From Anadara kagoshimensis (taxonomy: Eukaryota > Mollusca > Bivalvia > Arcoida > Arcidae), in contig CM037868.1 in NCBI GenBank assembly GCA_021292105.1, positions 30,812,578 through 30,876,577 of the forward strand: a DNA stretch of 64,000 nucleotides, given 5' to 3'. Each line of letters begins with the position of its first letter. The first letter of the stretch is position 1. A program made the translations under genes and the position numbers. Below are positions 1 to 44,044 of the stretch, one piece after another. Under the pieces are notes generated by a model. It saw only the letters and a program-made list of their open reading frames with translations. It searched no databases and was not told the origin of the DNA.

Positions 1-39
1 CTTTACAGCGCAAATAGCCTAAACTGTACAATAACGTTC

Positions 40-125
40 TGAGTTGCTCAGTTGGTAGAATATATGCCTATAATACTCACTGGAGAGTCTTTCTCTGCGC
101 AAGGTTTATTTTACCGGATCAGATA
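40..125 (+). repeat. Degenerate tRNA-like sequence (SINE head remnant), left copy
   Basis: The stretch reads TTGCTCAGTTGGTAGAA, an A-box-like motif, then an anticodon-arm-like segment and a weak B-box-like segment near 105. The partner at 43,562-43,654 keeps a better A-box (TTGGTAGAG). It looks like the head of an old tRNA-derived SINE, not a working tRNA gene, because the T-arm consensus GGTTCGA is lost. Confidence 0.4.
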
Positions 126-299
126 TTTTAAAAGTAATAATCGTTTATGTATTAAGATGACCAGGCTCCTTGGGTGCCTTTGCTTTAGACATTCGAGACG
201 GAACAAAGATTTTCTTTATTGATTCTCTTATTATTGTTTTCATTCATTTATTTTATTGGCGTATACATGTAAAGTCCACTGAAAAGATAGGGCATATGT

Positions 300-1181
300 T
301 CGGGTTGTGCATATGAAAAACTCGGGCACGAGCATAGTGTTTCAATTTTAAAACCGTTGGGCTTAGCTTTAATACGTGTCTATTGAATCACAGTACAGGT
401 ATTTAAGTTAATCAAAACAAGTAAAAGAGCCATCGTGTAACTTTCATTTAACAGCTGACGTATCGATAACGATATATCATTACTAATGTTTATATAACTG
501 CCATACATATAACACATAACAGACTCATTGTTTACTGTACAAATAGATTTTGTACCACCGACAAACTAACTAAAACATCCTCCTACCAAGATCTATCCCC
601 CGAGTGAGATTCTAAGATGATAGATAGTGTGATCTGTATGGCTTTTTAGAAATCTGGGGAACCAAGTCCAAACACTAAGATTGAAACTAAGTTATAAAAT
701 ATTTGTCCACATCTATAAGAAAAACTTTTTACTATACGTAGTATATACATTGTATTATCAAAGATTTAAATTGTGTGCTTTTTGTAGTACTGAATCATAC
801 CTTCTATATAAGTTTGTTTTAACTTTGCGGTTTGACGTTCGAACTTTGAGAAGTTTATTTGTCTTGTTTTACACCAGGTCATAAAACCAACAGTTACGGC
901 AATAAAAAGTCTAAACTTGAAAAGCGCCAGTAAAAAAGCTTTGTAGTGAAGTATGATTAATTTCGAACAAGCGATTTCAAAAATGTAAAAAATAAATGAA
1001 TCGTACAATTCGAATGTACGGACATACGGTTCATTATCCAAAACATCCAAAAGGAATGGTAAGGAAAATGGGAATAGAGGGGATATATCATCTTTTTAAT
1101 CGAGATGCTTTCTAACACTAGATTTTGATTAATTATTGATTAAGAAGAAGTTCTACTAAACTTGATTTTGAGTTTAAATAT
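300..1181. other. Downstream intron flank, no gene seen
   Basis: AT-rich sequence lying 3' of the left somatomedin-B exon. By comparison with the right copy it is intron sequence of the same gene. The short open frames here have no recognisable domain and are not conserved in the other arm. A stretch of about 520 bp (roughly 420-1040) has no counterpart in the right arm and so looks like an insertion here or a loss there. Confidence 0.5.
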
Positions 1182-2192
1182 TTAACCATTATGAGAAAAT
1201 CTGGATGAAATGTTATAAAGCTTGATAATACATACCATATTGACATCGTATTTGTACCTGTTATCGTGGCACCGTTTCGACCAAAACCAATCGACCGCAG
1301 GAGAAATGTTGAATATTCCCGTCAAAACAAGGTCTCTATATCCTTTCATATCTAAAAAATCTGATGCTGGTAAAGATGGTGAAATACAATATGTTGTTTT
1401 ATTCGTACAGTAGGCATTTTTATATATCTTGTTACCTACAAGTACAGGGCTATGAAACTTTGTACATAAAGCGTTATCAAGTTCATTGTTTGTCGTAAAG
1501 TGAAAACAGCTTCGGATCTTGGAATATGGAGATGGTATAAACCAATAAGTGCATTTGTTTTCGATTACGTATTTCATTTTATTATTGATTGTTGTGTTCA
1601 ATGATTTCATTCCTTTCGCATTACATATTCCTTGATACACAAATTCAAACTGCCATGACGTAACCTTAGTAACGTTATGACAAAATGCACAATGCACGTT
1701 TCTGTAGACAGTTCCGTCGTCTGCTGATACAGGATGTTTGTTTTCTTCCATGTTACATCTATCTGAAGTGCCAGACATGGTGTATGATAGTGGACATTTT
1801 GACACTATCCATACGCCGAAATATTTCGTTTGAAATATTCCTTTTTCGCAGGACTTATATTCTTTTTCATAATCCAAGCTGCTCACTGACGTCACAGTAT
1901 CTGTTAGTGGTGCATCATTACAACAATCGTTATATTCTATGCAGGCTAAATCGCAGTAACAAACGGGTAAAATGTATCGTTCTGTGTGTTTACAGCCTCC
2001 TAAGTTATCACATTTATTTTTTACAGGGTCCACCAATTGTGATAAAGCTACTGGGTAAAATCGATGTGATATGATTGAATAAAAGGCCTGGTCTCCATCG
2101 TCGTTTACGTACATTAACTCGAAAAATATGCAATCATAAAGCAAAAAACAAATCATGATCATTGCAAATGTCTTTTTCTTGAGTCTATCCAT
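1182..2192 (-). CDS. Somatomedin-B domain exon of a secreted/GPCR-type protein, left copy
   Basis: A 336-codon open frame that starts with a hydrophobic signal peptide (residues about 8-26). A somatomedin-B-like domain follows, with eight cysteines at residues 61, 67, 78, 80, 84, 90, 91 and 115 and the typical CxCDxxCxxxxDCC core. A second cysteine-rich region contains YRNVHCAFC (163-171), a motif common in N-terminal domains of invertebrate secretin/methuselah-like adhesion GPCRs. Several NxT/S sites suggest glycosylation. The real exon probably ends at 1236, where ATG is followed by a strong donor (GTATGT), so the last 17 residues would be intron read-through. Downstream exons would lie left of base 1. 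The start is supported by an identical start and promoter in the right copy. It differs from that copy at roughly 50-60 residues, including Asn instead of Tyr after the CC pair. Confidence 0.82.
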   Translation of the reverse strand: MDRLKKKTFAMIMICFLLYDCIFFELMYVNDDGDQAFYSIISHRFYPVALSQLVDPVKNKCDNLGGCKHTERYILPVCYCDLACIEYNDCCNDAPLTDTVTSVSSLDYEKEYKSCEKGIFQTKYFGVWIVSKCPLSYTMSGTSDRCNMEENKHPVSADDGTVYRNVHCAFCHNVTKVTSWQFEFVYQGICNAKGMKSLNTTINNKMKYVIENKCTYWFIPSPYSKIRSCFHFTTNNELDNALCTKFHSPVLVGNKIYKNAYCTNKTTYCISPSLPASDFLDMKGYRDLVLTGIFNISPAVDWFWSKRCHDNRYKYDVNMVCIIKLYNISSRFSHNG

Positions 2193-2249
2193 CGTAACTT
2201 TTCTTACTGTTTCATGTAAAATAATTGATACAGTGCCAAATACCTTTAC

Positions 2250-2256
2250 TTTTATA
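2250..2256 (-). promoter_or_regulatory. TATA box of left somatomedin-B gene
   Basis: TATAAAA on the minus strand, 58 bp upstream of the start codon, with the flanking bases conserved in the right arm at 42,203. Spacing fits a short 5' UTR of about 30 nt. The promoter is conserved between copies at about 95% over 200 bp. Confidence 0.6.
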
Positions 2257-2706
2257 GCTGTTGTTTTCTATTCCCTGGTCTTAGTATACAGTGATTGTCT
2301 ACAGATAAAAAATTAAGGTAAAACTATTTTTTAATCAGTTGATTGGTCAAAGTGACAGGCGTTGTATAGTACTTGGAAGTGTCCAATAAACAAGGGCGGT
2401 ACCTGTTTACTTTCTAAACCAATGTATTGGTTATTTTTGTGCTATATTTCTACGTAATAAAACGATATATTTAGCGATATACGTATACAGATTTTCCTTT
2501 TCGGATATCGAATTACGTTATACCTATAAAAAATATCTATTCCATCCAGTTTTTATCAGAACAAAAAGAACAATTAATTACAGTCTAATCAGTACTTTTT
2601 AATGACAAATAAGCACAATATATAGTTTCGCCACTGAGCGGCTATCTCTGCTGGTGACTGGTGCCCCGAGAAAATCACAAACTTAGTAGGCAATAATTGT
2701 GTATTA

Positions 2707-3069
2707 TTGTCGGAAATATACGTCTTTTGTCTAAATTTGCTGCTAATACGTGATATCGCGATTACCAGAGGTTACTTACCGTTTCAGGGCATCCTTAACT
2801 TCTGTAAACAAGAATGTAACCATGACGGCATGACAAAACAAGGCCGACTTTTCATTACATTGCTGAAGGCTGAACGTCTGATAGTAGACAGGGAATCGCA
2901 ATATTTCTTTTTTCTCACTTCCAAAGGTACGAAGTGTAAGAAAAACTGGCAAAGATTCATTCGTAGAGATGGATTAGAGGAGCAGACAAATACCAACTTG
3001 GCAAGAAATCCCTGCTACTACCGGGCGATACGATTTCCGCCATTTATTAGTCTGCTTTCAACATTTTGA
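2707..3069 (+). other. Open frame of unknown nature, left copy
   Basis: An open stretch of about 100-120 codons that is also open in the partner at 41,336-41,635 on the minus strand, with mostly conserved residues (for example NHDGMTKQGRLFITLL). I do not recognise a domain. It lies about 500 bp upstream of the somatomedin-B gene and runs away from it. The opposite strand is also open over part of the region, which weakens the coding argument. It may be an exon, part of an old transposon, or chance. Confidence 0.25.
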
Positions 3070-3099
3070 AGATGAAGAGCCCATACCACTTATTCTATG

Positions 3100-3780
3100 C
3101 CCCACACTGTATAACAACTTTTAACAACGGGGAAAGGCAGGGAAACGAAAAAAAAACCATCATCGGGACATGGTAACGATAATGGGTTAAATCTGGAAGG
3201 CCAAGAATGTCACCTGTATATAAAAGAAGAATAACATAACAATAAAGGAATCTGGGTCAGATAAGTCATCTGTCTACTACCCATATGTATATGGTGAAAT
3301 GGAAATAGAATATGACACATTATATGAGCCAGAGCATACTCTGGTAATTGTTTTGACAGTAATACAAAAAATTACAAATGACGATAGTCAGCTACTTTAG
3401 CAAAGTGTTTTGTTACATATTGAAATTCTATGTTGGATGGGACCTTGATACTGAAAGACCCACTCCCCAGTGTCATTAAACCTGGCATATTACTAAAGCC
3501 CATCAAAATGCATAGGTATATTTTACCACATTTAGCAACAATTTTATGATCTTGATATAAGTGAAATAATCTTGACTAAAAGTATAATTTTATTCACTCA
3601 GACTACTAATAATGAATATATTAACTGAACTTAGATAAAGTAGTAATGTAATTTTTTCACGGGGGGATTAGAACACATCAGATGAAAGTATGAAAATTAA
3701 GTGACCAATTTACTTGCAAAGAGCCAAAATTTTTTATGTCATTGTAGCCGAGTTGTAAGATTGCTTACTATGTATTTTCG
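3100..3780. other. Non-coding arm sequence, nothing recognised
   Basis: AT-rich sequence shared with the right arm (about 40,640-41,330). No gene, RNA or terminal repeats seen. Confidence 0.5.
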
Positions 3781-3990
3781 AGATTAGAGAATTTAAAGTT
3801 TTCACAAAGTACGACATATATGCCACCGTGAGCTAATGAAATTTGATCAGAAACGCTAGAACCATGACTTTCAGTTGGTAATGCTGATTGCTTGGCGAAA
3901 GAACAGTCACTACTCTCTTTCAAGTTTTGGGTCAAACTCCGTTGGGGTTCGAACCTACAACCTCCCACTTATGGAGCAAGCTCAACGATT
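3780..3990 (-). repeat. tRNA-derived SINE fragment, left copy
   Basis: On the minus strand the sequence has a tRNA-like head with a B-box (GGTTCGAACCCCA-like) at about 3,945-3,960, followed by the body AACTTGAAAG...GTGACTGTTC. The same body occurs in full-length minus-strand copies at about 48,525-48,770 and 61,150-61,415. Translation of this SINE gives a spurious 66-residue peptide. The partner is at 40,395-40,600. Confidence 0.7.
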
Positions 3991-3999
3991 TGAATGAAG

Positions 4000-5625
4000 A
4001 ATGAATAAAACAGCTATAGATTCTTCATTGAATTCATTAAATTTAAAATAACTTTCTTACTTAAAAATGACAAAGTAGATAAGAGTAAAGAAAATGCTGA
4101 CAGAAAACTTTGAGTTCAGTTGATACAGAGTTCCATTAATTTGCATTGAATGGTACAAGTTCAATATAAATACCTTTCTGAGTATAAAGAATGAAGTCAC
4201 AAAAAGGTGCATTACACACTGCCATTTGTCTCAAAATCTGAATATAATAAGGTGAGTTCTCACTTATTTGGGTAAATTATTACTCCTATAATGTAAAGCA
4301 CTATAAAACTGTGATTGTTAGTCTGTCCCTCCTTTGACAATTCCATAAATAATTATCTGATTGTCCAGTAGTGCACTCGCTAACATTTTCATGTCATCGT
4401 CATACATAAATTGGTTAATTTTGCAATCTCAATATTTCTTAATTATGTCTATTATATACAGAGTATGTTTATCAAAATCTACACTTTTATCTTAATCTGA
4501 GCAAGTGCTACACTTGTTAAATTTGACTGTTTTAATAATATTGTGATATCTCTTTCTATTTTCTTCCTGCCCAGTGTCTCAAGGTAATGTCTGGTAGTCA
4601 TCATGTGGTGTGGGACCAGGTTTCTTATAAACAGTAATATCGCATCTTAAATATATTAGATATAAATTTATCTTTCAAAATGTTTAACACAAGGCTTTTT
4701 TAACATGCTGGTTACTGGATTTGCTTTAATTACTTATTATGTATTTTAATGTATGACTTGCTAACGTCAGAGAAGTTAGGGAAGATCTTATGGTTTTATC
4801 ACTGCTATAAACCATGATCTCAATGTACAGGTAAACCTTGACAAATCACCGCTATTTATCTTATTTGGTCAAATAGTAACATAATAAAGGATTTTAGTGT
4901 TACATGAAGGTTAACATGGAGATCAAATCATAAAAAAATTGTATTTGAAATTTCAAAATATTGTGAGAAGGTGGTAAAATTATTAACTTATCTTGGGGAA
5001 TAAAAAACACATGTTTTACTGTATAGGTGTCTTAAACTTATTTCTGATTCAGTGTTCAATCTAGGATTATTCAGAGAAGCCTTTTTTTCAAAAACATTCC
5101 TCAACAACACCATAACATTTTATTGTCGCATTCATGTAATGTTAAATATGGTACACTAAGACCTTAAAAATGGGGTCAATTGGCAAAATAAGGGCCCAAC
5201 CAACGTTTCTATAATAAACACTGACTTTTAGAAAAGAGATCTGTTAAAACCAAATAATTTGCCTCAAATAACCTCTAAATAAACATCTCCGATCAAACCA
5301 GAAATGATAAGTCATTTGGTTTACATTATTAGATGTGGTTCTGGTTTAACAACCATTGGTTGTCTAATAGATTTGCACTTTTGGTAAAGATGAGCTTCAA
5401 AAGAGCAATTCATTCTGGTATATATACCTGCCCAGTATTTTCTAACAAAATCCATAATTTATCAGGTTCTGTATATTGTCTTGTCTCTCGTACACATTTT
5501 ACTCTGATGTATATCATACCGTTACCTGAAATAATAATTATAAGATGCAACAATACATTTTAGATATACTAGTATTTGTATAAAAGGACTGTTTACAAAC
5601 CTTTTCTTTTTTTATTTACATTGTA
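4000..5625. other. Non-coding arm sequence, nothing recognised
   Basis: Matches the right arm from about 39,100 to 40,390 as reverse complement. There are no long open frames with recognisable domains and no tRNA-like or terminal-repeat structures. Confidence 0.5.
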
Positions 5626-5626
5626 A

Positions 5627-5628
<2 letters not shown>

Positions 5629-5689
<61 letters not shown>
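5629..5689. repeat. (AT)n microsatellite
   Basis: About 30 uninterrupted AT dinucleotides. In the right arm a (AT)n tract occurs at 38,653-38,731, at a nearby but not identical position. Confidence 0.95.
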
Positions 5690-5692
<3 letters not shown>

Positions 5693-6859
5693 ATTTTTAG
5701 TAAAATAAACATAATTTATCACGCATTCACGCGATACAGGCTTATACAGGATTTCCTATGCATAACAAGTGTACGTCACGGACTTACGCATTACATTTGT
5801 TTATAAAATAGCACAAACATCAAAATAAAGAAAATGTTCATTGATTATACGTTTGACCTATAACGACAGAATTTTTAATTTTATGCTTTAAAATTACACC
5901 TAACAAAGCCGAGATTTTTGTCTCAAAAGATGAAATCATTATTGGTGACAATTCATTTTACTACGTGATACGTATTGTTATTTGAATTCCAATGCGCGTC
6001 TAATAAACATGGGATATATTTGATTTTCAAAATGATATAAGAAAATTAACCGCATTATTTAAACACAGGTTAATGAAATTTGAGGTAAGTAATCCACGAT
6101 ATAAGTATAAGTCCACATCGGTATTCCTTACTAAATAAGTGACCATACCATAAACTAAGTCTGTAATACATTGTATTCAAAGCTTTCGACATCAATTCAA
6201 ACTTTACGTGCATTCATGAAAGAGATAACAAAAGGTAAAGTTATAATGTTGTTTCTGATGTTTAATATATATATATTGTATGTAAGGATTACATATATAA
6301 TATGTACTTGTGGTTCTGTAAAAGGGTTATCTTTCATAATCATAATAGTTATAATAATTATTTCACGTTCGATTCCTGAACTCTTTGTTATTTATTTATT
6401 TATTGATTTTTGGATTTGTGTCATATAAAAAAATCCTATTCCTATTTGTTTCAATCATTTTGATTGGTCATATCTTCTTGGTTACGCTTGCATGAATGGA
6501 CTTTTCTCAATGACGTCATCGTATTATGGATGATGGCTAACTTATTATATAAATACTTGATTTGATTTTGAAAAAATCTATAAATTGAAAAACCCTTATT
6601 TTTGTGCCGGAGAAATATTATTTAAACTCAAGTATTTATTTTTATAACGTCATCTTATTCATGTTTATTTAAATGACTTTACGAGGCTTTTTATATGCAA
6701 CATTCTACATTTTTCCAACATGTGCTCTTGTATATTATTGTATGTTCATTTTATCAAAGTAGCAGTTTTATTTACAACGTCAGAAATCGATATACATATC
6801 TAAATTTGGTCATTACAAACTCAAATTACTCACAAAATTAATTTCTTACAAAAATTAAT

Positions 6860-6995
6860 TGCTGACCCTTACGGAGCACCCAACATCACTTTTCAGTTGT
6901 TTTTCACGTGTTTAATTTAATATGCCGGAATTAAAGTTTTTGTTTGCTTTGGAATTGTGATTTGGACATTGATTAATAAACTTGTTTTCATTAAA
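6860..6995 (-). repeat. Diverged E-family terminus
   Basis: Contains the recognisable order of E-family motifs: GGAGCACCC, a CACGTG segment, GCCGGAATTAAAG, GGAATTGTGATTTGGACATTG and a degenerate form of the terminal motif. It is more diverged than the copies at 7,941 and 36,708. Its partners in the right arm are at about 31,830-31,960 and 37,930-38,060. Confidence 0.5.
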
Positions 6996-7940
6996 CCATC
7001 ATAACGATAAAATTTAATTACATTTCAGCTAAAACAGCGGTTGATCTTCAATCTTGTTTTTTACCTAAAATTTTGTATATTTCTCTGTGATTTCAATAAA
7101 ATCAAGACAATTGTTTGTAAGAAAACCATCTTTGTTGCATACATTGAGATCATTAATGTAGGAATTCACTTTTAAATACTGCAGTCACGTCATATTTCAA
7201 ATCAATAAATAAAATTTGACATGATGATTATAATAAAAATCTATGTCAAATATTGATAGTTATTTATGGATGACAGAGTAAGAATAGCTATTAAGTTAAA
7301 ATGTTTGTGTTTAGTTTTCTCAAAAAATATTTATCAGAAATTAAAAAAAGAGATAACAAACAATTCCCAAATTTAAGTGAGCGAAAATCTAAGCTAAGAA
7401 AAGATTGTGCACAAAAAACGAAAAAGGGACCATTTATACCCTAAATCAAACAAAAAGTTGGTTGTTAACTTGTACATATAATCATCTAGATGTTGTCATT
7501 ATTCAAACAAAACCCTACGATATTTAGATTTATTAACAGGATAAAGAGGGTTCTTGCCCTAAGTTGCGTTTTACTTTCAGTAATATTTTCTATAGGAACC
7601 ATTGCTTTATAAAGATCGTTTGTTCTGACAGTAAAAATAATTTGTAATTTGACAGACATTGTTTTTTAATATAAATATAACATAAAACTACACATAAACC
7701 GTTATTTTTTAATTTACTTATTTATTTCTTTAATGAGTTATTTATCATTATTATTTTTGCTGAAGGAAATTACTACTGATGGATCTGGGTAATATATACA
7801 GTTCACTCTACAAGCTTTAGTTACTATATAGCATGGATAACACCTGCGTCACTTCCAGTTTTGTGCCTTTTACTACAAAAGGAAGGTAACACCGTATTTT
7901 AACAATTTTAGGATTTTATTTTACGCTGAAAAAAAGCACA

Positions 7941-8216
7941 ATCAAAAACAAACATACTAATCCATGTCCGAATCACAATCTAGAAGCAAAGTAAAAACTT
8001 TGGAACTGACAAGTCAGGTTACACACGTAAACTTCTACCAGGGAAGTGAGGCCGGGTGGTCCGGAAGGGTAAGCATCTCCTGTTTAGCTAGCTACAACCG
8101 CCACACATGTAATCAAAATTGTGTGAAAGTAACATGGAACTTTGAGATGTCAAATATATCAAGGGCAATTCTGGACACAGAGACATCAAACTTATTAACA
8201 ATATTGTGATGACAGA
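7941..8216 (+). repeat. E-family dispersed repeat with a short open frame
   Basis: Starts with the family terminus ACAAACATACTAATCCATG and runs through a GTGAGGCCGGGTGG segment, a TTTAGCTAGCTAC segment and a CCAGAG-like end. One strand is open for 81 codons (MSESQS to NLLTIL). Copies at 30,608-30,805 and 36,707-37,042 encode nearly the same residues (TCQVTHVNFNQGSEAGWSGR). Other copies in the window are interrupted. It is a moderately repetitive element of unknown class. I see no transposase and no clear terminal inverted repeat. Confidence 0.7.
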
Positions 8217-8229
8217 GATTAAAAACAAT

Positions 8230-9400
8230 TGTACCTAAATCGACTCTTTATTATGTAATCTTTCATATGGTACTAAAAGTTCGGTTTTGCGTGACCGGGT
8301 ATCTTTTAAATCTATAATTTGATCTTTATATCGGCCTACAGAGATCATCACACAATTACAATCACTTTATCAACTTTCGCCTATGTTTGCTCTAAAAACT
8401 GCCATAGCACATATTTCTGTTTATGTTACCTGTCTTAACAGTTAAATCTGTTATATCTTTATTAAAAGTTTACTGGTAAGTTGACTGGAATATATTAAGG
8501 TTCTTAGCATGTATTATTATTACTATAATTATTATTATATTTGATAGAATCATAATTAATATCATTCTATTTTTCGTCTTCTTCTTACTTCTTATAATCA
8601 TAATTCTTTAGATTTCTCGATTTTTTAATATATTTTTGTTGATTTATATCCGAACGTCTAATTGATGAGTATCCTGATATCATGGTCAGTTTGTAAGCGG
8701 ATTTAATTATCTATTAAACTAAAACTGCGTGTATTAGGTAAAATTAAAAGCCAATTTTTCTCATACTAGGTCTCTATACGACTATAATTAGTGATAATTA
8801 GTTTCTGTAAACCGCAAAACCAGTTGTCTACCCTATTTTTATGTTCTGAAACATGGATTTTATATTCTTCAAAAGTGCCTTGTGGTATAACTATAAGATT
8901 ATCTATCGTAGAATTACATTTATTATGACGCAGATATGTATTTGGATTCATTTTACAACATATAAAAGAAAACTTCTTACTGATTTATATCTTCGTAATG
9001 TCTTTGAACGCATTATTGCATATTAAAATTTTCAAATCAGCTGATGGACGCTACTAAAAAATAAAATCAAAATGTTTTGATGTATATGGAGTTAAACGTA
9101 TTGTTTATTGCCTTACTATATTGAAATATTGAAATATCAAACATAAAAAAGAATTGTTTGTATGACAGAACTAACCCTAGCTTTTTCTTTATTTTTCTAT
9201 CGTCTGTTTCTATCCAGGTGATATATTTTTTTTCAACTATTTTTATCATTTTAAAAGAATGTTCAGTGTTTTCCAACTTTATTCTGAAACAACACGCATT
9301 GTTGTATAGGGTTATTTACTAGTTTTGTTTACGTTTGTATTAAATTTAGATTGTAACACATATACATGTATATTTCACTTTATTTCATCAAAGACAAGAT
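8230..9400. other. Non-coding arm sequence, nothing recognised
   Basis: AT-rich; repeated in both right-arm tandem copies (about 29,450-30,600 and 35,530-36,700). Short open frames are not preserved among the three copies, which argues against coding. Confidence 0.55.
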
Positions 9401-9429
9401 CTCTCATCAATACAAAATATGTTCATAAT

Positions 9430-9650
9430 GTCAAAACGTCTTTTATATGCAGCAATGTACCTAATTTTCCTGCCTATGGTGTATTTAATTCACAACCAAT
9501 AGGGTAAAACTTTTTCCCACTGTATGCAATGAAGCAAGCGGCTAACTAATAAATTGTTGACGCAATGATATTAGAGGCCTAGATGTATCAATGCCTTCAA
9601 AAAGTTTTATGGACGTCATCATAACATCGCATTATTAACGATAAGCGTAT
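9430..9650 (-). repeat. Diverged E-family far-end segment
   Basis: Resembles the better-preserved segment at 11,735-11,950 (GCAGCAATxTACCT, GGTGTATTT, CCCACT...AAGC, TTGTTGACxC, CTAGGC-like, TTATGGxCGTCATC). Related copies lie at about 29,110-29,330 and 35,200-35,400. Confidence 0.5.
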
Positions 9651-9839
9651 TTGTCTATGATTTTTCAAAGAATGGCATTTATCTAACAGTAAATTTTATT
9701 GCCAACGAATACGTCATCTATTTTGATCACATTTTGGTGCGTGCTCTTCCTGTTTCATATAAATTACAACTTCATCTCAAATAAGTGTATTTAATAAATG
9801 AATTTCAAAACTTCACCGGATATATCTACAAACAATAAG

Positions 9840-10180
9840 CAGGCTTAAAACAAAATAAATTACTGTGTATGTGTGATTAAATTTGGTAACAACACATTTT
9901 AAATACACTTTATGTTATTTTTGCGACTATATTTTCCGCCTTATTAGAAATGGCAGCGATCTTGAATTTAAAAACATTACCGCATATAACTAAAATTAAT
10001 AATAAGCTGAAAAAACAAAATCAATTTCTGTAAATATGTGATGAAAATAGACAATAAGACACTTTAAATACACTGTGATTTTGGTGGCCATTTTGTTCAT
10101 CATATAGAAAATAGGGACCATTTTGGATTTTTTGGTTGGCCCCATATCTGAAAATAATTCCATATCATGACTAATAATTA
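9840..10180. repeat. Two direct copies of a ~170-bp module
   Basis: Two consecutive modules share the order AAAxTxAATTxCTGT, TGTGAT, ACACxTTTTAAATACACT, then a G/C-richer segment containing GGCAGCGATC or GGTGGCCATTTTG. The whole pair recurs in the right arm at about 28,730-29,030 and 34,680-34,990. No coding potential seen. Confidence 0.5.
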
Positions 10181-11104
10181 TGCCAATTTTCATGCATTTA
10201 ACACAATTTTTTTCACGATTCTGTTGGATTAAAGTAAAAACATAAGTGTACTTAAATAGGTGTGTTGACAGATATTTGTGAAAATAAGAAATATGAGAAT
10301 TCCATTGTATATTGACTGTGAAATTGCTGTAAGATAAGTTTAACTTGGTCTATCAGTTTCAACGTTTCTACTTTTATTTTGTATGATACTTTTGATTGTT
10401 ATGTTTGTTTTTGATAGACATCTGTAAAGTCGCATATAATTAATTATGTAGAAATAAAACAGAACTTCTGAACTTTCAGTATTTATTTTCTTGTATTATA
10501 AAGCTTTAAAAAAGACTCAATAACACACCTGGTTCGACAGCATTATCTACGTCAGCCATCGGCAAAAAATGTACTAGTTACCACGAAGTTGACTTTTAGA
10601 ACCACAACGGTTTCTTTAACAATCAGAGTTCCATAAACGTCTTATAAATAATGTCTTAATAGAAATAAAAGAAGATTCTGGAACGCACCTGGTTCAATGT
10701 GAATCACCGGTCATAAAGTAATGAATTTATTAGAATCACGTGAACGGTCAATGGTCATTAAATAGTGTATTGATAACGCCAGGTTTACTAACTTGTGACA
10801 TTACAACATGTACAGATTTTAACTAGCAGGAACTTTAGAATATTCTTTTGCGAAAATAATAATATTAATAAAAATTGGGAAAAATATCCATTATTTCTGT
10901 ACCTAAGTTTTCATATTTTTACGTATATAACATATGACAAATAATTAATAAGTGTATCTATCTGAAACAAAGTTCCAACCTAAACATTTTTGAAAGATTC
11001 CTTCTTTCGATGATGATTAATACCATAATTAATTACAGAACTTATTTTACAAAATATGAACATATGTTTCATTATTGTGAAATTTTTGCATCTTTAAGTA
11101 TTAA

Positions 11105-13135: not shown

Positions 13136-13136
13136 T

Positions 13137-14780: not shown

Positions 14781-14784
14781 GTCT

Positions 14785-32560: not shown

Positions 32561-32562
32561 AT

Positions 32563-32652: not shown

Positions 32653-32686
<34 letters not shown>

Positions 32687-32690: not shown

Positions 32691-32889
32691 ATAAACGTTA
32701 TCTAAAATAAGACTCAAGATCATTTTTACGGATATAAAAATCTATGTTCGATTATTAATAATGATTCGGTGATACGATTAGAGGAACCTATAAGATATCT
32801 TTCCTTTTGTTGGTATATGTGAAATCTAGGAATCATACAAGTAAGAAATGTAAAATTATTCATTCTTATTTATTCTGTTTTTATTATTT

Positions 32890-33215: not shown

Positions 33216-33249
33216 TACTGTCCGAAACACAATCCAGAAGCAAAGTTGT

Positions 33250-36200
33250 GCTGAATAATAGATGCGACTGGGCTAATGGTATCCTCGGGAAAAATTCCAC
33301 CAGCAGAGACATCGACCCAGTAGTAATAATCAAAAACAAACATACTAATCCTAACTTGTCATTTCCAAAGTTTTTACCCTGCTTCTTGATTCTGATTCGG
33401 ACATTATTTGCTATGTTTTTGTTTGATTAATACTTAAAGATGCAAAGATTCCCCTATAGTTAAACCTATTTTCATCTTTTGTAAAATAAGTTCTGTAATT
33501 AGTAGGCTTCTTCGACATAATATTCAAACCAACCCATTCATGAATTATTCAAGGTATAGAATCAATATTGTTATGATGAAGACCATTTTTCATGTATTGT
33601 ATTTATCATCATCGAAAAAAGAATCTTTCAAAAAAGTAAAGGTTGTTTCAGATTGACAAACTTATTAATTATTTTTCACATATCATAATTTATACCGTAT
33701 AAAACATGGAAACATAGATATATAAACATCGAATATTTTTCTTTTTTTATTATTCATAATATTTTGATAGAAACAATATACTAAAGTTCCTCATAGGTAA
33801 AATCTGAAAATTCTCATAAATCGAAGGTACACTCTCTCATGCAAGTATTACTTAGGTATATAAGAAAGAAGTTGTGCTTTCACAATTTTGGTCCAAACAC
33901 TATTCATGAGAAATCGTATTCCGAAACGGCCGTTTAGTGCTGTAAAATGAATACGAATATACCATGTAATAAAGTCGCAAATTTATTTCTTTCATTATGG
34001 TAGAAAATATTACAATTCATTGTAAATGTTGTAATCCTGGCGTTAATAAATACACTATTAAATTACCATTCATCTGTTCATGTGGTTCTAATAAATTCAT
34101 TACTTTATGACCGGTGTTTCACATTGAAAGAAAGATAAATCCAGGTGCGTTCCAGAATCTTCTTTTATTTTCATAAAGACATTATTTATAAGACGTTTAT
34201 GGACCTCTAATTCTAAAAGAAACCGCTGTATTTCAAAAAGACAACTTCGTGGTAACTAGTACGATTTTATTTGCCGATGACCGACGTAGAAAATGCTGTC
34301 GAACAAGGTGTGAATCTTTTTTAAAGCTTTATTATACAAGAAATTAAATACTTTAAGTTTAGAAGTACTGTTTTTAGTTCTATCTAATTGATTATATGCG
34401 ACTTTACTGATGTCTATCAAAAACAAACATAACAATCAAAAGTATTATACAAAATAAAAGTAGAAATGTTGAAACTGATAAACCAAGTTCAACTTATCTT
34501 ACAGCTATTTAACATTCAATAAAAAATGAAATTCTCATATTTCATAGTTTCACAAATTTCTGTTACCACACCTATTTAAGTACACTTATGTTTTCACTTT
34601 AATCCAACAGAATCGTGAAAAAAATCGTGTTACAAGCATAAAAATTGTCATAAATATTATTCATAATATGCAGATTATTTTAAGATATGGGGCCAACCAA
34701 AAAATCCAATATGGCCCTATTTTCTATATAGTGGCCATTTTGGCCACAAAAATCACATATAGTGTATTTAAAGTGTCTTATTACCTATTTTCATTACATA
34801 TTTACAGAAATTAATTTTGTTTTTTTTACCAGCTTATTATTAATTTTAGTTATTTGGGTAATGTTTTTAAATTCAAGATCGCTGCCATTTCTAATATGGC
34901 GGAAAAATTGCCGCAAAAATAACTTAAGTGTATTTAAAATATGTTGTTACCAAATTTGATCACACATACACAGTAATTTATTTTGTTTTAAGCCTGCTTA
35001 TTGTTTGTAGATATATCCGGTGAAGTTTTGAAATTCATTTATTAAATACACTTATTGGAGATTAAGTTGTAATTTATATGAAACAGGAAGATAACGCACG
35101 AAAATGTGATCAAAATAGATGACGTATTCGTTGGCAATAAAATTTACTGTTAGATAAATGCCATTCTTTGAAAAATCATAGAAAAAATACGCTTATCGTT
35201 AATTATGCGATGTTATGATGACGTCCATGAAGGCATTGATACATCTAGGCCTCTAATATCATTGCGTCAACAATGTATTAGTTAGCAGCTTGCTTCATTG
35301 CATACAGTTCTCATATTGGGAAAAGTTTTACCCTACCGTATTGGTTGTGAATTAAATACACCATAAGCAGGAGAAATAGGTACATTGCTGCATAGAAAAG
35401 AAGTTTTGACAATATGAACATATTTTATATTAATGAGAGATCTTGTCTTTGATGTAATAAAGTGAAATATACATGTATATGTGTTATCTAAATCTAAATT
35501 TAATACAAACTTTAACAAAACTAGTAAATAACCCTATACAACAATGCGTGTTGCTTCAGAATAAAGTTGAAAAACAAAATGATAAATCAGTAATTTGAGC
35601 TTTTTATGACACTGAGAATTCTTTTAAAATGATAAAAATAGTTGAAAAACAAATTTATCACCTGGATAGATAGAAAAATCAAGTAAAATCTAGGGTTAGT
35701 TCTGTCATACAAACAATTCTCTTTTATGTTTGATATTTCAATATTTTTATATAGTAAGGCAATAAACAATACGTTTAACTCCCTACATATCAAAACTTTT
35801 TGATTTTAGTTTTTAGTAACGTCCATCAGCTGTTTTGAGCATTATAAAATGCTATAATGCGTTCAAAGAAATTACGAAAATATAAATCAGTAAGAATATT
35901 TCTTTTATATGTTCTTATATTACATGTGTAAAATGAATCTAAATACATATCTTCGTCATAAGAAATGTAAATTCTACGATAGATAATCGTATAGTTATAC
36001 CACAAGGCATTTTTGCAGAATACAAAATCCATGTTTTAGAACATAAAGATATGGTAGGCAACTGGTTTTGCGGTTTACAGAAACTAATTATCACTAATTA
36101 TAGTCGTATAGAGACCTAGTATGAGACAAATTAGCTTCTAATTTAACCTTATACATACAGGTTTAGTTTAATAGATAATTAAGTCCGCTTACAAACTGAC

Positions 36201-36700
36201 CATGATATCAGGATACTCATCAATTAGACGTTTGGATATAAATCAACAAAAAATATATTAAAAAATCGAGAAATCTAAAGAATTATTATTATAAGAAGTG
36301 AAAGGAAGACAAAAAATACAATAATATTAATTGTGATTGTATTAGATATAATAATAATTATAGTAATAATAATACATGCTAAGAACCCTAATATATTCCA
36401 GTCAATGTACCGGTAATCTTTTAATAAAGATATAGCAGATTTAACTGTTAAGACAGGTAACATAAACAGAAATATGTGCTATGGCAGTTTTTAGAGCAAA
36501 CACAGGTGAAAGATGATAAAGTGATTGTAATTGTGTAAAGTTCTTTTACTTCATGTGATATTCGGAGGTCTATAAGTTGGATGTAGACCGATATAAAGAT
36601 CAAATTATAGATTTAAAAGATGTCACCAAAAACAGAACTTTTAGTACTATATGAAAGATTACATAATAAAGAGTCGATTTAAGTACAATTGTTTTAATCA
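33250..36700. other. Non-coding sequence of copy B
   Basis: Direct match to copy A and inverted match to the left arm (about 8,230-11,100). Short open frames are not preserved in the three copies. No gene recognised. Confidence 0.5.
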
Positions 36701-36707
36701 CTTTCAT

Positions 36708-36965
36708 CACAGTATTGTTAATAAGTTTGATGTCTCTGTGTCCAGAATTGCCCTGGAAATATTTGACGTCTTATACTTCCATATTCCTTTCCTTTCAACG
36801 TGGTTGTTGTAGCTAGCTAAACAGGAGGTACTTACCCTTCCGGACCACCCGGCCTCACTTCCCTGGTTGAAGTTCACGTGTGTAACCTGACATGTTAGTT
36901 CCAAAGTTTTACTTTGCTTCTGGATTGTGATTCGGACATGGATTAGTATGTTTGTTTTTGATTGT
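36708..36965 (-). repeat. E-family repeat with open frame, copy B
   Basis: Nearly identical to 30,605-30,870. The open frame is extended upstream here to 111 codons, running into non-repeat sequence. Confidence 0.65.
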
Positions 36966-38648
36966 GCCTTTTTCAGCGTAAAATAAAATCCTAAAATTGT
37001 TAAAAATACGGTGTTACCTTCCTTTTGTAGTAAAGGGCACAAAACTGGAAGTGACGCAGGTGTTATCCATGCAATATAGTAATTAAAGCTTGTAGAGTGA
37101 ACTGTATATATTACCCAGATCCATCGGTAGTAATTTCCTTCAGCAAATAATAATAATGATAAATAAATAATTAAATAAATAAATAACTAAATTGAAAAAT
37201 AACGCTTTATGTGTAGTTTTATGTTATACTTATAGTAAAAAAACAATGTCTGTCAGATTACAAATTAATTTTACTGTCAGAACAAACGATCTCTATAATG
37301 AAATGGTTCCTATGGAAAATATAACTGTAAAATAAAACGAAACTTGGGGCAAGACACTTCTTTATCCTGTCAATAAATCTAAATCTCGTAGGGTTTTGTC
37401 TGAATAATGACCACATCCAGATGATTATATGAAAAAGTTAAAAACCACCTTTTTGTTTGATTTAGGATATAAATGATCCCTTTTTCGTTTTGTGTGCACA
37501 ATCTTTTCTTAGCTTAGATTTTTGGTCACTTAAATTTGGGAATAATTTGTTATCTCGTTTTTTAATTTCTGATAAATATTTTTTGAGAAAACTAAACACG
37601 AACATTTTTATGTAATAACTATTTTTAAGGAATTACTCTTACTTTGTCATTCATACATAACTATCAATATTTGACATAGATTTTTATTATAATCATCATG
37701 TCAAATTTTATTTATTGATTTAAAATATTGACGTGACTGCAGTATTTAAAAGTGAATTCCTACATAAATGATCTCAATGTATGCAACAAAGATGGTTTTC
37801 TTGACAAATAATTGTCTTGTTTTTATCGAAATCACGGAGAAATATACGAAATTGTAGGTAAAATACAAGATTAAAGATCAACCGCTGTTTTAGCTTAAAG
37901 TTATTTAATTTTATCTTCATGATGTTTTAATGAAAACAAGCATATTAATCCATGTCCAAATCACAATTCCAAAGGAAACAAAAACTTTACTTCCGGCATA
38001 TCAAATTAAACACGTGAAAAACAACTAGGAAAGTGATGTTCGGTGCTCCAGAAGGGTAAGGAATTAATTTCTTATAAGAAATTAATTTTGTGAGTAATTT
38101 GAGTTTGTAATGACCAAATTAAAACATGTATATTGATTTCTGGATGACGTTGTAAATAAAACTGTTACTGTGATAAGATAAACATACAATTATATACAAG
38201 AGCACATGTTGATAAATGTAGAATGTTGCATATAATATGTTTCGTAAAGTCATTTTAAAAAACATCAATAAGGCGACTTTATAAAAATAAATAGTTGAGT
38301 TTAAATAATATTTTTCCGGCACAAAAATAAGGGTTTTACTATTTATAGATTTTTTTCAAAATCATATCAAGTATTTAAATAACAAGTTAGCCGTCATCCA
38401 TAATACGATGACGTCATTTATAACAAGTCTATTCATGTGAGCGTAACCAAGAAGATATGACCAATCAAAATAATTGAAACAAATAGGAATTGGATTTTTT
38501 TATATGACACAAATCCAAAAATCAGTAATAAATAAATAAGAAAGAGTTCAGGAATCGAACTTGAATTAATTATTATAACTATTTATGATCATGAAAGATA
38601 ACCCTTTTACAGAACCACAAGTACATATTATATATGTAATCCTTACAT

Positions 38649-38652
<4 letters not shown>

Positions 38653-38731
<79 letters not shown>
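38653..38731. repeat. (AT)n microsatellite
   Basis: About 38 AT repeats. The YIYIYI open frames on both strands are products of this tract, not proteins. Confidence 0.97.
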
Positions 38732-38733
<2 letters not shown>

Positions 38734-38779
38734 CATCAGAAACATCATTGTAACTTTACCTTTTGTTATCTCTTTCATA

Positions 38780-40390
38780 AATGCACGTTAAGTTTGAATT
38801 GATGTTGAAAGCTTTGAATACAATGTATTACAGTCTTGGTTTATGGTATGGTCACTTATTTAGTAAGGAATACCGATGTGGTCTTATAAAAGATCGTGGA
38901 TTACTTACCTCAAATTTCATTAACCTGTGTTTGAATAATTCAGTTGATTTTCTTATATTATTTTAAAAATCAAATAAACCCATGTTTATTAGACGCGCAT
39001 TGGAATTCAAATAACGATACGTATCACGTAGTAAAATGAATTGTCACCAATAATGATTTCAGCTTTTAAGTCCAAAATCTCGGCTATGTTAAATGATCTT
39101 GAAAATTAAAAAAGAAAAGGTTTGTAAACAGTCCTTTTATACAAATACTAGTATATCTAAAATGTATTGTTGCATCTTATAATTATTATTTCAGGTAACG
39201 GTATGATATACATCAGAGTAAAATGTGTACGAGAGACAAGACAATATACAGAACCTTATAAATTATGGATTTTGTTAGAAAATACTGGGCAGGTATATAT
39301 ACCAGAATGAAATTGCTCTTTTGAAGCTCATCTTTACCAAAAGTGTAAATCTATTAGAAAACCAATGGTTGTTGAACCAGAACCACAGCTAATAATGTAA
39401 ACCAAATGACTTATCATTTCTGGTTTGATCGGAGATGTTTATTTAGAAGTCATTTGAGGCAAATTATTTGGTTTTAACAGATCTCTTTTCTAAAAGTCAG
39501 TGTTTATTATAGAAAGTTTGGTTGGGCCCTTATTTTGCCAAATGATCCCATTTTTAAGGTCTTAGTGTACTATATTTAACATTACATGAATGCGACAATA
39601 ATTACGTTATGATGTTGTTGAGGAATGTTTTTTGAAAATGGCTTCTCTGAACAATCCTAGATTGAACACTGAATCAGAAATAAGTTTAAGACACCTATAC
39701 AGTAAAACATGCTTATTTTTATTCCCCAGGATAAGTTAATAATTTTACAACCTTCTCACAATATTTTGAAATTCCAAATACATTACTTTTATGTTTTGAT
39801 CTCCATGTTAACCTTCATGTAACACTAAAATCATGTTACTATTTGACCAAACAAAATCAATAGGGGTGATTTGTCAAGGTTTGTCTGTACATTGAGATTA
39901 TGTTTTATAGCAGGGATAAAACCATAAGATCTTCCCTAATTTCTCTGATGTTAGCAAGTCATACATTAAAATACATAATAAGTAATTAAAGCAAATCCAG
40001 TAACCAGCATCTTAAAAAAGCCTTGTGTTAAACATTTTGAAAGGTAAATTTATATCTTATATATTTCAGATGCGATATTACTGTCTATAAGAAACCGGGT
40101 CCCACACCACATGATGACTACCAGACACTACCTTGAGACACTGGAGAGGAAGGAAATAGAAAGAGATATACATGTAACAATATGACTTCATTCTTTGTAC
40201 ACAGAAAGGTATTTATATTGAACTTGTACCATTCAATGCAAATTAATGGAACTCTGTATCAACTGAACTCAAAGTTTTCTAACAGCATTTCCTTCACTCT
40301 TATCTACTTTGTCATTTTTAAGTAAGAAAGTTATTTTAAATTTAATGAATTCAATGAAGAATCTATAAGCTGTTTTATTCATTCTTCATT
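38780..40390. other. Non-coding arm sequence, nothing recognised
   Basis: Inverted match to about 3,990-6,210. It lacks the left-arm AT tract of 5,629-5,689. No gene seen. Confidence 0.5.
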
Positions 40391-40394
40391 CAAA

Positions 40395-40600
40395 TCATTG
40401 AGCTTGCTCCATAAGTGGGAGGTTGTGGGTTCGAACCCCAACCGAGTTTGACCCAAAACTTGAAAGTGAGCAGTGACTGTTCTTTCGCCAAGCAATCAGC
40501 ATTACAAACTGAAAGTCATGGTTCTAGCGTATCTGATCAAATTTCACCAGCTCACGGAGGCATATATGTCGTACTTTGTGAAAACTTTAAATTCTCTAAT
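40395..40600 (+). repeat. tRNA-derived SINE fragment, right copy
   Basis: AAGTGGGAGGTTGTGGGTTC leads into a good B-box (GGTTCGAACCCC), followed by the body AACTTGAAAGTGAGCAG. Mirror partner of 3,780-3,990. Confidence 0.72.
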
Positions 40601-41335
40601 CTCGAAAATACATAGTAAGCAATCTAACAACTCGGCTACAATGACATAAAAATTCTTATAATCTTGTCCGAAGTACAATTTTGGCTCTTTGCAAGTAAAT
40701 TGGTCACTTAATTTTAATACTTTCATCTGATGTGTTCTAATCCCCCCGTGAAAAAATTACATTACTACTTTATCTAAGTTCAGTTGATATATTCATTATT
40801 AGTAGTCTGAGTGAATAAAATTATACTTTCAGTCAAGATTATTTCACTTATATCAAGATCATAAAATTGTTGCTAAATGTGGTAAAATATACCTATGCAT
40901 TTTGATGGGCTTTAGTAATATGCCAGGTTTAATGACACTGGGGAGGGGGTCTTTCAGTATCAAGGTCCCATCCAACATTTAATTTTAATATCTAGCAGAA
41001 TACTTTACTAAAGACGATGACTATCGATCATTTGTAATTTTTTGTATTACTGTCAAAACAATTACCAGAGTATGCTCTGGCTCATATAATGTGTCATATT
41101 CTATTTCCATTTCACCATGACATATGGGTAGTAGACAGATGACTTATCTGACCCAGATTCCTTTATTGTTATTTTATTGTTATTTTATACACAGATGACA
41201 TTCTTGGCCTTCCAGATTCAACCCATTATCGTTACGATGTCCCGATGATTTTTTTTTCGTTTCCCTGCCTTTCCCCGTTGTTAAAAGTTGTTATACAGTG
41301 TGGGGCATAGAGTAAGTGGTATGGGCTCTGCATCT

Positions 41336-41635
41336 TCAAAATGTTGAAAGCAGACTAATAAACGGCGGAAATCTTATCGCCTGGTAGTAGCAGGGATTTC
41401 TTGCCAAGTTGGTATTTGTCTGCTTCTCTAATCCATCTCTACAAATTAATCTTTGCCAGTTTTTCTTATACTTCGTACCTTTGGAAGTGAGAAAAAAGAA
41501 ATATTGCGATTCCCTGTCTACTATCGGACGTTCAGTCTTCAGCAATGTAATGAAAAGTCGGCCTTGCTTTGTCATGCCGTCATGGTTACATTCTTCTTTA
41601 CAAAAGTTCAGGATTCCCCGCAAATTTCGCGACAT
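41336..41635 (-). other. Open frame of unknown nature, right copy
   Basis: A 99-codon open frame corresponding to 2707-3069, open in both copies despite several substitutions. Both have GILNFCKxECNHDGMTKQGR and KNPCYY-like segments. I do not recognise it. The other strand is also open for 76 codons. Confidence 0.25.
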
Positions 41636-42202
41636 TTAAGGTAAAATATACGTTTTGTTTCATCACTAAAGAGTTCTGAAACGGTAGGTAGCCCCTGGTA
41701 ATCGCGATATCACGTATTAGCAGCAAATTTAGACAAAATACATATTTTCGACAATAATACACAATTATTGCCTACTAAGTTTGTGATTTTCTCGGGGCAC
41801 CAGTCAACAGCACAGATAGCCGCTCAGTGGCAAAACTATATATTTTGCTCATTTGTCATTAAAAATGCTGATTAAACTTGAATTAATTGTTCTTTTTGTT
41901 CTGATAAAAACTGAATGGAATAGATATTTTTTATACGTATTACGTAATTCGATATCCGAAAAGGAAAAGCTGTATACGTATATCGCTAAATATATCGTTT
42001 TATTACGTAGAAATATAGCACAAAAATAACCAATACATTGGTTTAGAAAGTAAACAGGTACCGCCCTTGTTTATTGGACACTTCCAAGTACTATACAGCG
42101 CCTGTCACTTTGATCAATCAACTGCTTAAAAATAGTTTTACCTTATTTTTTCATCTGTAGACAATCACTGTATACCAAGATCAGGGAATAGAAAACAACA
42201 GC

Positions 42203-42209
42203 TATAAAA
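42203..42209 (+). promoter_or_regulatory. TATA box of right somatomedin-B GPCR gene
   Basis: TATAAAA, 57 bp before the start codon at 42,267, in a region highly similar to the left copy. Transcription would start about 30 bp further on, giving a 5' UTR of about 30 nt. Confidence 0.6.
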
Positions 42210-42266
42210 GTAAAGATATTTGGCACTGTATCAATTATTTTACATGAAACAGTAAGAAAAGTTACG

Positions 42267-43277
42267 ATGGATAGACTCAAGAAAAAGACATTTGCAATGA
42301 TCATGATTTGTTTTTTGCTTTATGATTGCATATTTTTCGAGTTAATGTACGTGAACGACGATGGAGACCAGGCCTTTTATTCAATCATATCACATCGATT
42401 TTACCCAGTAGCTTTATCACAATTGGTGGACCCTGTGAAAAATAGATGTGATCATTTAGGAGGCTGTCAACAGGCAGAACAATACATTTTACCCGTTTGT
42501 TACTGCGATTTAGCCTGCATAGAATATAACGATTGTTGTTATGATGCACCACTAACAGATACTGTGACGTCAGTGAGCAGCTTGGATGATAAAAAAGAAT
42601 ATACGTTCTGCGTAAAAGGAATATTTGACAGGAAATATTTCGGCGTATGGATGGTGTCCAAATGTCCACTGTCGCACACCATGTCTGGCACTTCAGATAG
42701 ATGTAACATGGAAGAAAACAAACATCCTGTATCAGCAGACGACGGAACTGTCTACAGAAACGTGCATTGTGCATTTTGTCATAACGTTACTAAGGTTACG
42801 TCATGGCAGTTTGAATTCCTGTATCAAGGAGAATGTACTGCGGAAAAAATGAAATTATTGAACACAACAATCAATAATAAAATGAAATACGTAATCGAAA
42901 ACAAATGCACTTATCGGTTTATACCATCTCTATATTCCAAGATCCGAAGCTGTTTTCACTTTAAGACAAACAATGAATTTGATAACGCTTTATGTACAAA
43001 GTTTCAAAACCCTGTAATTGGAGGTAATAAGATATATAAAAATCTCTACTGTACGAATAAAACTACAAATTGTATCGAATCACAGTTAAAAGCATCAGAT
43101 TCCAAAGATAGGAGAGGATATGAAGGCCTCCTTTTGACGGGAATATTCAATTTTTCTCCTGCGGTCGATTGGTTCGGGTCGAAACTGTGTCACGATAGCA
43201 GGTACAAATACGATGTCAAAATGGTATGTATTATAAAGCTTTATAACATTTCATCCACATTTTCTCATAATGGTTAA
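42267..43277 (+). CDS. Somatomedin-B domain first exon of an adhesion/secretin-like GPCR, right copy
   Basis: A 336-codon frame: signal peptide about 8-26, somatomedin-B-like domain 61-115 (cysteines 61, 67, 78, 80, 84, 90, 91, 115), then a cysteine-rich ectodomain with YRNVHCAFC at 163-171 and several NxT/S glycosylation sites. The coding exon most likely ends with ATG at 43,221-43,223, followed by donor GTATGT; the remaining frame is intron. The next in-phase exon is proposed at 46,299. Somatomedin-B domains usually bind extracellular protein partners. With the 7TM part downstream, this is the ligand- or matrix-facing part of a receptor. The ligand is unknown. Confidence 0.85.
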   Translation: MDRLKKKTFAMIMICFLLYDCIFFELMYVNDDGDQAFYSIISHRFYPVALSQLVDPVKNRCDHLGGCQQAEQYILPVCYCDLACIEYNDCCYDAPLTDTVTSVSSLDDKKEYTFCVKGIFDRKYFGVWMVSKCPLSHTMSGTSDRCNMEENKHPVSADDGTVYRNVHCAFCHNVTKVTSWQFEFLYQGECTAEKMKLLNTTINNKMKYVIENKCTYRFIPSLYSKIRSCFHFKTNNEFDNALCTKFQNPVIGGNKIYKNLYCTNKTTNCIESQLKASDSKDRRGYEGLLLTGIFNFSPAVDWFGSKLCHDSRYKYDVKMVCIIKLYNISSTFSHNG

Positions 43278-43561
43278 ATATTTAAAACTCAAAATCAAGT
43301 TCATCTTAATCAATAATTAATCAAAATTTAGTGTGAGAAAGTATCTCGATTCACCAGATGATTTATCCCCTCTATTCCCATTTTCCGTGCATATGCCCTA
43401 TCTTTTGAGTGGACTTTACATGTACACGCCAATAAAATCAATGAATCAAAACAATAATAAGAGAATCAATAAAGAAAATCTTTGTTCCGTCTCGAATGTC
43501 TAAAGCAAAGGCACCCAAGGAGCTTGGTCATCTTAATACATAAACGATTATTACTTTGAAA

Positions 43562-43654
43562 ATATCTGATCCGGTAAAATAATACCTTGCGCAGAGAAAG
43601 ACTCTCCAGTGAGTATTATAGGCATATACTCTACCAACTGAGCAACTCAGAAAG
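43562..43654 (-). repeat. Degenerate tRNA-like sequence, right copy
   Basis: Minus-strand counterpart of 40-125, with A-box-like TTGCTCAGTTGGTAGAG. Probably an SINE head remnant. Confidence 0.42.
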
Positions 43655-44044
43655 TTATTGTACAGTTTAAGCTATTTGCGCTGTAAAGATATCAATATTT
43701 TCCCTTGACCTTAAGCTGATGGAGTATCAAAATAAATGAATTGGCTTTAGTCGTTGTATAAAATTTAATCATTCTGCTTAAAATCTAAAATAAATTGGTA
43801 CCGTTCTCAATAGATTATGTCTATTTTTAGTAGTGGTCTGTCGCTAAAACACTCGTATTGAGCACGATTAGGTATCCGGTTACTCCCCCTGCCCGATCCT
43901 TATGTGACAGTTGGTGGTCAATGTGACCATCGAAAGTAGGCAGGCTTTCGGCTTGAAACATATAAAGGTGTCACCATTCCATATCAAGTATGAATGTCTT
44001 TAAGACTTTAGCAATTTACCTGTTTATGTCTTGCATTTCACTCA

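Follow-up and report, generated by a model that had tools for sequence, protein, structure and literature searches.

What kind of event sets two copies of one receptor gene back to back in a bivalve chromosome, and what has become of the copies since? The question is raised by a stretch of 64,000 nucleotides on Anadara kagoshimensis contig CM037868.1 (C12:30812578-30876577, hereafter the window), part of a 36-contig assembly of 1.115 Gb, whose left and right arms (L and R) mirror one another and each carry a copy of a seven-transmembrane (7TM) receptor gene. The window was analysed together with 50 kb of left and 30 kb of right flank, a stretch of 144 kb in which negative coordinates lie to the left of window base 1. 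We consider it likely, on the sequence features set out below, that the locus is a real local inverted segmental duplication, old and imperfect, which was nucleated at older inverted repeats and was later modified by patchy exchange.

Self-comparison of the window and flanks returned an ordered chain of reverse-complement matches, running within the window from 1-298 / 43,688-43,390 to 12,898-15,002 / 26,634-24,467. The original prediction held that the mirror exceeds the window, and the flanks bear this out: the chain continues through -808..298 / 44,506-43,390, -7924..-4315 / 48,094-44,529, -9416..-7924 / 50,020-48,500, -12,109..-10,777 / 52,595-51,284 and -13,285..-11,952 / 54,437-53,085, and the arms can be traced to -13,285 and 54,437, about 68 kb in total. 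At their outer ends both arms enter a 70-bp satellite (left -15,598..-12,385; right 53,538-54,439), which on the right resumes beyond an insert of ~10.3 kb, from 64,712 to ~69.4 kb. This shared terminus supports a single copied block. A control comparison of 1-15,005 with 55,000-64,000 gave no inverted match at an E value of 1e-5.

The inverted arms thus predicted are present, but the uniform identity of 93-96% claimed for nearly their full length is not, the block-wise profile ranging from 84 to 97% (gaps excluded; left-only stretches, such as 299-1,062, and the outermost repeats not counted), as against 43.8% when unrelated stretches of 2 kb were aligned globally in a single control. Identity is lowest at the axis, at 86.0% (12.9-15.0 kb; 84.2% against the first array copy). 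From the axis outward, blocks upstream of exon 1 reach 92.3-92.4 (6.3-10.8 kb), 92.3, 95.2, 96.0 and 95.2%; across the gene, exon 1 stands at 93.0%, less alike than the DNA upstream of it (95-96%), three intron blocks at 92.6, 93.8 and 94.5%, and exon 2 at 96.5%; the 3' flank gives 92.2 and 96.9%, blocks from 5.9 kb out to this point spanning 92-97%, and the outer ends give 91.3 and 89.5%. An inverted segmental duplication is conventionally at least 1 kb long, at least 90% identical, and more than a dispersed repeat. Most blocks here lie at 92-97%, although the axis unit and the outermost block fall below 90%.

The centre of the mirror is not a loop of the kind first supposed. A direct-repeat array is indeed present, but most of it is the innermost unit of the right arm repeated in the orientation of that arm, which leaves a true spacer of only ~0.8 kb (~15,008-15,784) and rules out a unique loop of 9.5 kb. 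The left unit at 12,898-15,002 is complementary, wholly or partly, to 15,785-17,431, 17,716-19,004, 19,286-20,572, 21,789-22,854 and 24,467-26,634. The array copies share 95-98% identity and a (TG)n run follows each of them; the first and last full copies are 88.5% alike with gaps counted. Outside the locus, the axis unit has one longer relative (C12:30742529-30744171, among the best 40 of 5321 candidates). The L and R axis units are 83.1 and 84.7% identical, and each is 83.4-85.0% identical to this outlying copy; 50 sites join both R units against L and the outlying copy, compared with 4 and 3 for the alternatives. Farther out, the right arm is longer than the left because it carries a tandem pair of 6-kb copies (26,735-32,584 and 32,710-38,675; R1 and R2), each of which contains a counterpart of the middle block of L. 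These three copies of the middle block on one contig are 92.7 (L-R1), 92.4 (L-R2) and 94.5% (R1-R2) identical.

These observations may be drawn together as follows. An ancestral block, comprising the receptor gene, its upstream DNA, its 3' flank and a border of 70-bp satellite, would have been copied in mirror image beside itself, to give two genes transcribed outward from an axis at ~15.4 kb. The likeliest origin of the mirror is repair by fold-back or template switching where two inverted copies of a local 1.6-kb repeat already existed and had already diverged, and we infer that this pair now lies at the axis. Older inverted repeat pairs can nucleate palindromes, and axis units that differ from each other as much as they do from the C12:30742529 copy, while the next fully alignable arm blocks are 92-96% identical, are what would be expected of a duplication nucleated in this way. 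Later, in an order that we infer, the innermost unit of the right arm would have been amplified and its 6-kb block duplicated in tandem; elements would have been gained and lost, the reading frame of the right gene lost, and patches exchanged between putative partners. The product would be two diverging family members, of which one is now broken.

Both copies of the gene carry splice donor and acceptor sequences and a hydrophobic start in exon 1, and the gene has two exons and encodes a secretin/adhesion-type 7TM receptor whose match to somatomedin-B is weak. The outward-pointing exons announced for each outer end exist, but their somatomedin-B assignment falls short of the Pfam cut-off (PF01033 scores of 15.0 and 15.1 bits, cut-off 23.1; 18.9-20.3 bits in three database relatives). 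Left exon 2 matches PF00002 at residues 229-470 (59.9 bits, cut-off 20.6). A profile search found no GPS or GAIN domain before the first transmembrane helix, PF00002 being the sole profile match of left exon 2 at E values up to 5, and a diverged GAIN domain is still compatible with this. The 7TM part of left exon 2 matched 14 distinct PDB sequences, all named adhesion G-protein-coupled receptors (GPCRs), of which ADGRL3 was best (E 2.4e-14). Relatives in the protein database number three for exon 1 and two for the right 7TM piece, and a database relative of the 7TM part reads stalk and 7TM in a single frame. Both left exons are open, whereas right exon 2 is short of one base at each of two sites relative to the left copy; exon 1 aligns between the arms over 1086 bp without a gap. 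The ratio of nonsynonymous to synonymous substitution rates (dN/dS) between left and right is 0.90 in exon 1, 1.17 in the stalk and 0.19 in the 7TM part (five nonsynonymous and eight synonymous changes), a contrast between ectodomain and 7TM (Fisher p 0.003, on rounded counts) that was obtained by simple counting from few synonymous changes. By these estimates the ectodomain is changing about as fast as neutral DNA, and the 7TM core is held.

The locus belongs to a large receptor family. A genome search with exon 1 gave at least 113 matches, or at least 110 after merging, several of them with stop codons. Opposed pairs are not the rule in this family: among the matches listed, 30 of the 41 neighbouring pairs no more than 100 kb apart are in tandem, with five divergent and six convergent. 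A separate cluster at C9:54759326-54829060 holds three divergent exon-1 pairs in series, at ~9-10 kb spacing. A relative used for comparison lies on contig C16, where the locus, like the C12 mirror, ends in the 70-bp satellite. Here copy a has an open exon 1, and an exon 2 (34,399,951-34,401,435) whose protein, from residue 5 onward, shares 92% identity with that of the left copy. This exon encodes a 512-aa open frame, which is shifted relative to the left copy at its very start, so in-frame splicing of copy a is uncertain. Copy b is opposed to a, begins within the intron at 34,419,458 and has a broken exon 2 (34,424,795-34,426,297); no exon 1 for it occurs within the stretch retrieved. At the C16 junction the intron of copy b joins the upstream DNA of copy a, which differs from the C12 junction. 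Opposed pairs with different junctions at the two loci fit independent events, although an ancestral mirror may also have been homogenised and rearranged afterwards at C12 and C16. In two intron blocks the identity between a and b is 96.9 and 97.9%, and 24 quartet sites there pair a with b and L with R, against 3 and 2 for the alternatives.

Exchange among the copies, which the original prediction expected to take the form of gene conversion between arms, would have left a more complex record. Site patterns are clustered, both among L, R1 and R2 (231 runs against 273 expected) and among L, R and the C16 copy (292 against 348, a count that omits gapped sites, 12 sites with three different letters, and the block -7924..-7642, which has no C16 partner); in each case none of 2000 shuffles gave as few. 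Patchy exchange among copies has probably occurred, and R1 and R2 take part in it, judging from these patterns, though an uneven mutation rate along the sequence could explain part of the clustering. The nearest relative of L also switches along the arm. On the gene side it is C16, with which L agrees at 218 sites, against 112 for L=R and 84 for R=C16; on the upstream side it is R, with 56 sites for L=R and 38 for each of the other two pairings (Fisher p 1.4e-5, comparing L=R with L=C16). This switch suggests arm-to-arm homogenisation, and goes no further than suggesting it: a block farther upstream (4743-5447) groups no copies clearly (20 L=R, 13 L=C16, 21 R=C16), and as the quartets group L with R, a long right branch may account for part of the likeness between L and C16 on the gene side. 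The strongest departure is an odd tract in right exon 1, which pushes the right copy away from the left, with 28 differences in 132 bp that neither the left nor the C16 copy shows, compared with 32 in the remaining 954 bp. As synonymous change is high around it too (a synonymous rate, dS, of 0.19 in codons 271-361), selection on the protein is not a sufficient explanation. A search for a donor elsewhere in the genome produced none: it listed the tract's own locus and its counterparts in the C16 and left copies, three matches with no closer relative among them, and the C16 copy was best among 28 retrieved exon-1 loci.

Could the mirror be a product of assembly, either of two haplotypes misjoined in mirror orientation or of a fold-back read? 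We regard this as improbable, despite signs that the assembly may retain redundant sequence. Same-order pairs of family loci ~0.6-1.2 Mb apart on one contig resemble unpurged haplotypes, and seven such pairs, picked by hand on C13, C14 and C3 and 96.0-99.7% alike over the listed alignments, probably are just that. A fold-back read is ruled out, as it predicts an axis that is the most identical part of the mirror, and here it is the least. For misjoined haplotypes, one would look for divergence in the allelic range and at most two versions of any block. The presumed allelic pairs, themselves a yardstick drawn from this assembly, differ by ~0.2-3.1% over the main alignment, compared with 3.1-16% in the arm blocks, of which only the 3' flank (3.1%) and exon 2 (3.5%) come near the upper end of the allelic range; moreover, the middle block occurs in three diverged copies, and the whole 144 kb contains no N. 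Wrongly joined haplotypes are therefore unlikely on sequence grounds.

Of the biological alternatives, ongoing arm-to-arm conversion, much as in Y palindromes, which keeps the outer arms of an old inverted duplication alike but fails near the axis, seems to us unlikely, yet it has some support in the data. It would account for the step from 84-86% at the axis to 92-97% in arm blocks out to the 3' flank, for the switch in the nearest relative of L within one arm, and for both sets of clustered site patterns. It sits poorly, however, with divergence of 3-8% in these arm blocks, which is far from homogenised, and with a broken right gene beside an open left one; the ungrouped block at 4743-5447, the long right branch allowed by the quartets, and an exon-1 tract that separates the right copy from the left all count against it too. 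That two paralogous blocks were instead inserted or rearranged independently, and came to lie in mirror orientation by chance, is as improbable as an assembly artefact. The C16 pair, with its different junction, indicates that pieces of the block do move, and axis units equally far from each other and from a third local copy would be unsurprising on these terms, but chance placement does not predict arms that are collinear on both sides from near the axis to the satellite, or the grouping of L and R against the C16 pair. Inverted duplication nucleated at older repeats remains our preferred reading. Several points weigh against it: arm matching is only patchy between 10.8 and 12.9 kb; the basis of the fold-back step is the one outlying unit copy on C12; conversion that spares the axis would likewise leave it more diverged; the probable unpurged haplotypes lie in the same assembly; the odd tract lacks a closer donor; the dN/dS contrast draws on small counts; and all of the evidence is the sequence of one assembly. 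More speculatively, and with very little expectation that it will prove correct, the opposed, outward-facing pairs at C12 and C16 might represent recurrent renewal of this receptor branch, in which each locus retains one copy with long open exons and one broken copy, the latter serving, as it diverges, as a reservoir of ectodomain variants that are passed on by patchy conversion while the 7TM core stays fixed.

Features of the locus, in window coordinates (negative values lie to the left of window base 1)
Feature	Position	Strand	Remarks
Left arm in window	1-15005	-	Inverted match to 24,467-43,688; left receptor exon 1 and upstream DNA; runs to about -13.3 kb
Right arm in window interval	24467-43688	+	Self-comparison; runs to ~54.4 kb
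Outer right arm	48500-54437	+	3' flank; 178-bp, 21-bp and 70-bp repeats; matches left -9416..-13285
Innermost left-arm unit	12898-15002	-	84-86% (gaps excluded) to right-arm units
Spacer at axis	15008-15784		15,171-15,784 copied at 23,887-24,466
Tandem array of innermost unit	15785-24466	+	Partly truncated copies, spacer-like stretches between
Middle block, L	6307-10814	-	Occurs twice in right arm (R1, R2)
R1, first 6-kb tandem copy	26735-32584	+	Self-comparison
R2, second 6-kb tandem copy	32710-38675	+	Self-comparison
Left receptor exon 1, coding	1236-2192	-	Open reading frame 1182-2267; first ATG at 2192; donor GTATGT after 1236
Right receptor exon 1, coding	42267-43223	+	Open reading frame 42192-43277; donor GTATGT
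Left receptor exon 2	-7641..-6124	-	Open frame, 505 aa
Right receptor exon 2, stalk and 7TM	46299-47826	+	Two frameshifts, near 46,974 and 47,236
Odd tract in right exon 1	43021-43152	+	Right-only differences, against left and C16 copies
Left-intron stretch absent from right arm	299-1062		~765 bp; present in C16 copy (alignment to -1777..2593 continuous)
Dispersed repeat upstream of receptor exon, both arms	2787-5600		Genome search
Insert in right 70-bp satellite	54440-64000, on to ~64,710		~10.3 kb; no counterpart seen in left flank

Mobile and repetitive DNA is also present in and around the locus. The insert in the right satellite was excluded from the arm, as the left flank has no counterpart. 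It contains an open reading frame on the minus strand (58946-60997, 683 aa) with matches to a Mutator-like transposase, PML_C and, just above the cut-off, an exonuclease, together with a sub-threshold reverse-transcriptase match (57712-58038); a stretch of the C16 intron (34404787-34406272) matches both ends of the insert without its interior. The left-intron stretch of ~765 bp also occurs in the C16 copy, so either the right arm has lost it or it was acquired before the separation of the left and C16 copies. The dispersed repeat at 2787-5600 recurs outside the locus: among the best 38 of 7242 candidates, 31 matches spread over 15 contigs span 3,994 to at least 5,585 at 81-84% identity; its two arm copies are 95-96% alike, compared with 72-84% to the dispersed copies. 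No inverted repeats of at least 12 bp were found in 290-1075 or 4190-4560. Short dispersed elements with many genome copies, which we take to resemble short interspersed nuclear elements, lie at 7938-8214 and inside the axis unit (91-93% and 79-82%, respectively). The left flank also bears a 66-bp satellite of ~207 copies (-43881..-30236), and a tRNA-like gene called as tRNA-Tyr (ata) lies at 56938-57011, the sole match, and a weak one, of an Rfam scan at gathering thresholds (31.8 bits, cut-off 29).

The locus offers a delimited inverted duplication in an animal, old enough to be read, and the position of its least-conserved part, at the axis, helps to distinguish a fold-back origin at older repeats from gene conversion that homogenises the arms. 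The locus further provides a receptor pair in which the extracellular part appears to evolve near the neutral rate while the 7TM core is held. Our literature search found nothing on somatomedin-B GPCRs in bivalves or Mytilus, or on gene conversion in bivalve palindromes. Judged by its domains, the family resembles the adhesion GPCR expansion of amphioxus, for which part of PMC2246102 describes ten genes with Kringle and somatomedin-B domains; both are lineage-specific expansions of adhesion-type 7TM receptors with somatomedin-B N-termini, though in Anadara somatomedin-B scores below its cut-off and a match to a GPS model is absent. The 7TM part of left exon 2 likewise resembles PDB structures of latrophilin (ADGRL), ADGRE and ADGRD receptors, the matches beginning at residue 222 or later and leaving the stalk unmatched.

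As a structure, the mirror bears only a weak likeness to the vertebrate sex-chromosome palindromes invoked in the original prediction. The palindromes of human and ape Y chromosomes, in the portion of PMC6790999 that treats them, share with it mirror arms that contain gene copies, alongside further inverted and tandem duplications, but their high arm identity is maintained by gene conversion, whereas here identity is 84-97%, which leaves a divergence of 3-16%, conservation is poorest at the axis, and one gene copy is broken and out of frame. Invertebrate palindromes provide another parallel. Part of PMC5490193 reports 11 palindromes in Folsomia candida and cites 17 in Adineta vaga, these being inverted gene blocks within one scaffold that include an expanded receptor-type Dscam2, with a synonymous rate of 0.2. 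According to the same portion of that report, they belong to parthenogenetic animals and hold numerous gene copies (2 × 8, 2 × 5), whereas the present mirror has one receptor gene per arm; like them, it consists of inverted, gene-bearing blocks within a single invertebrate scaffold that have diverged appreciably.

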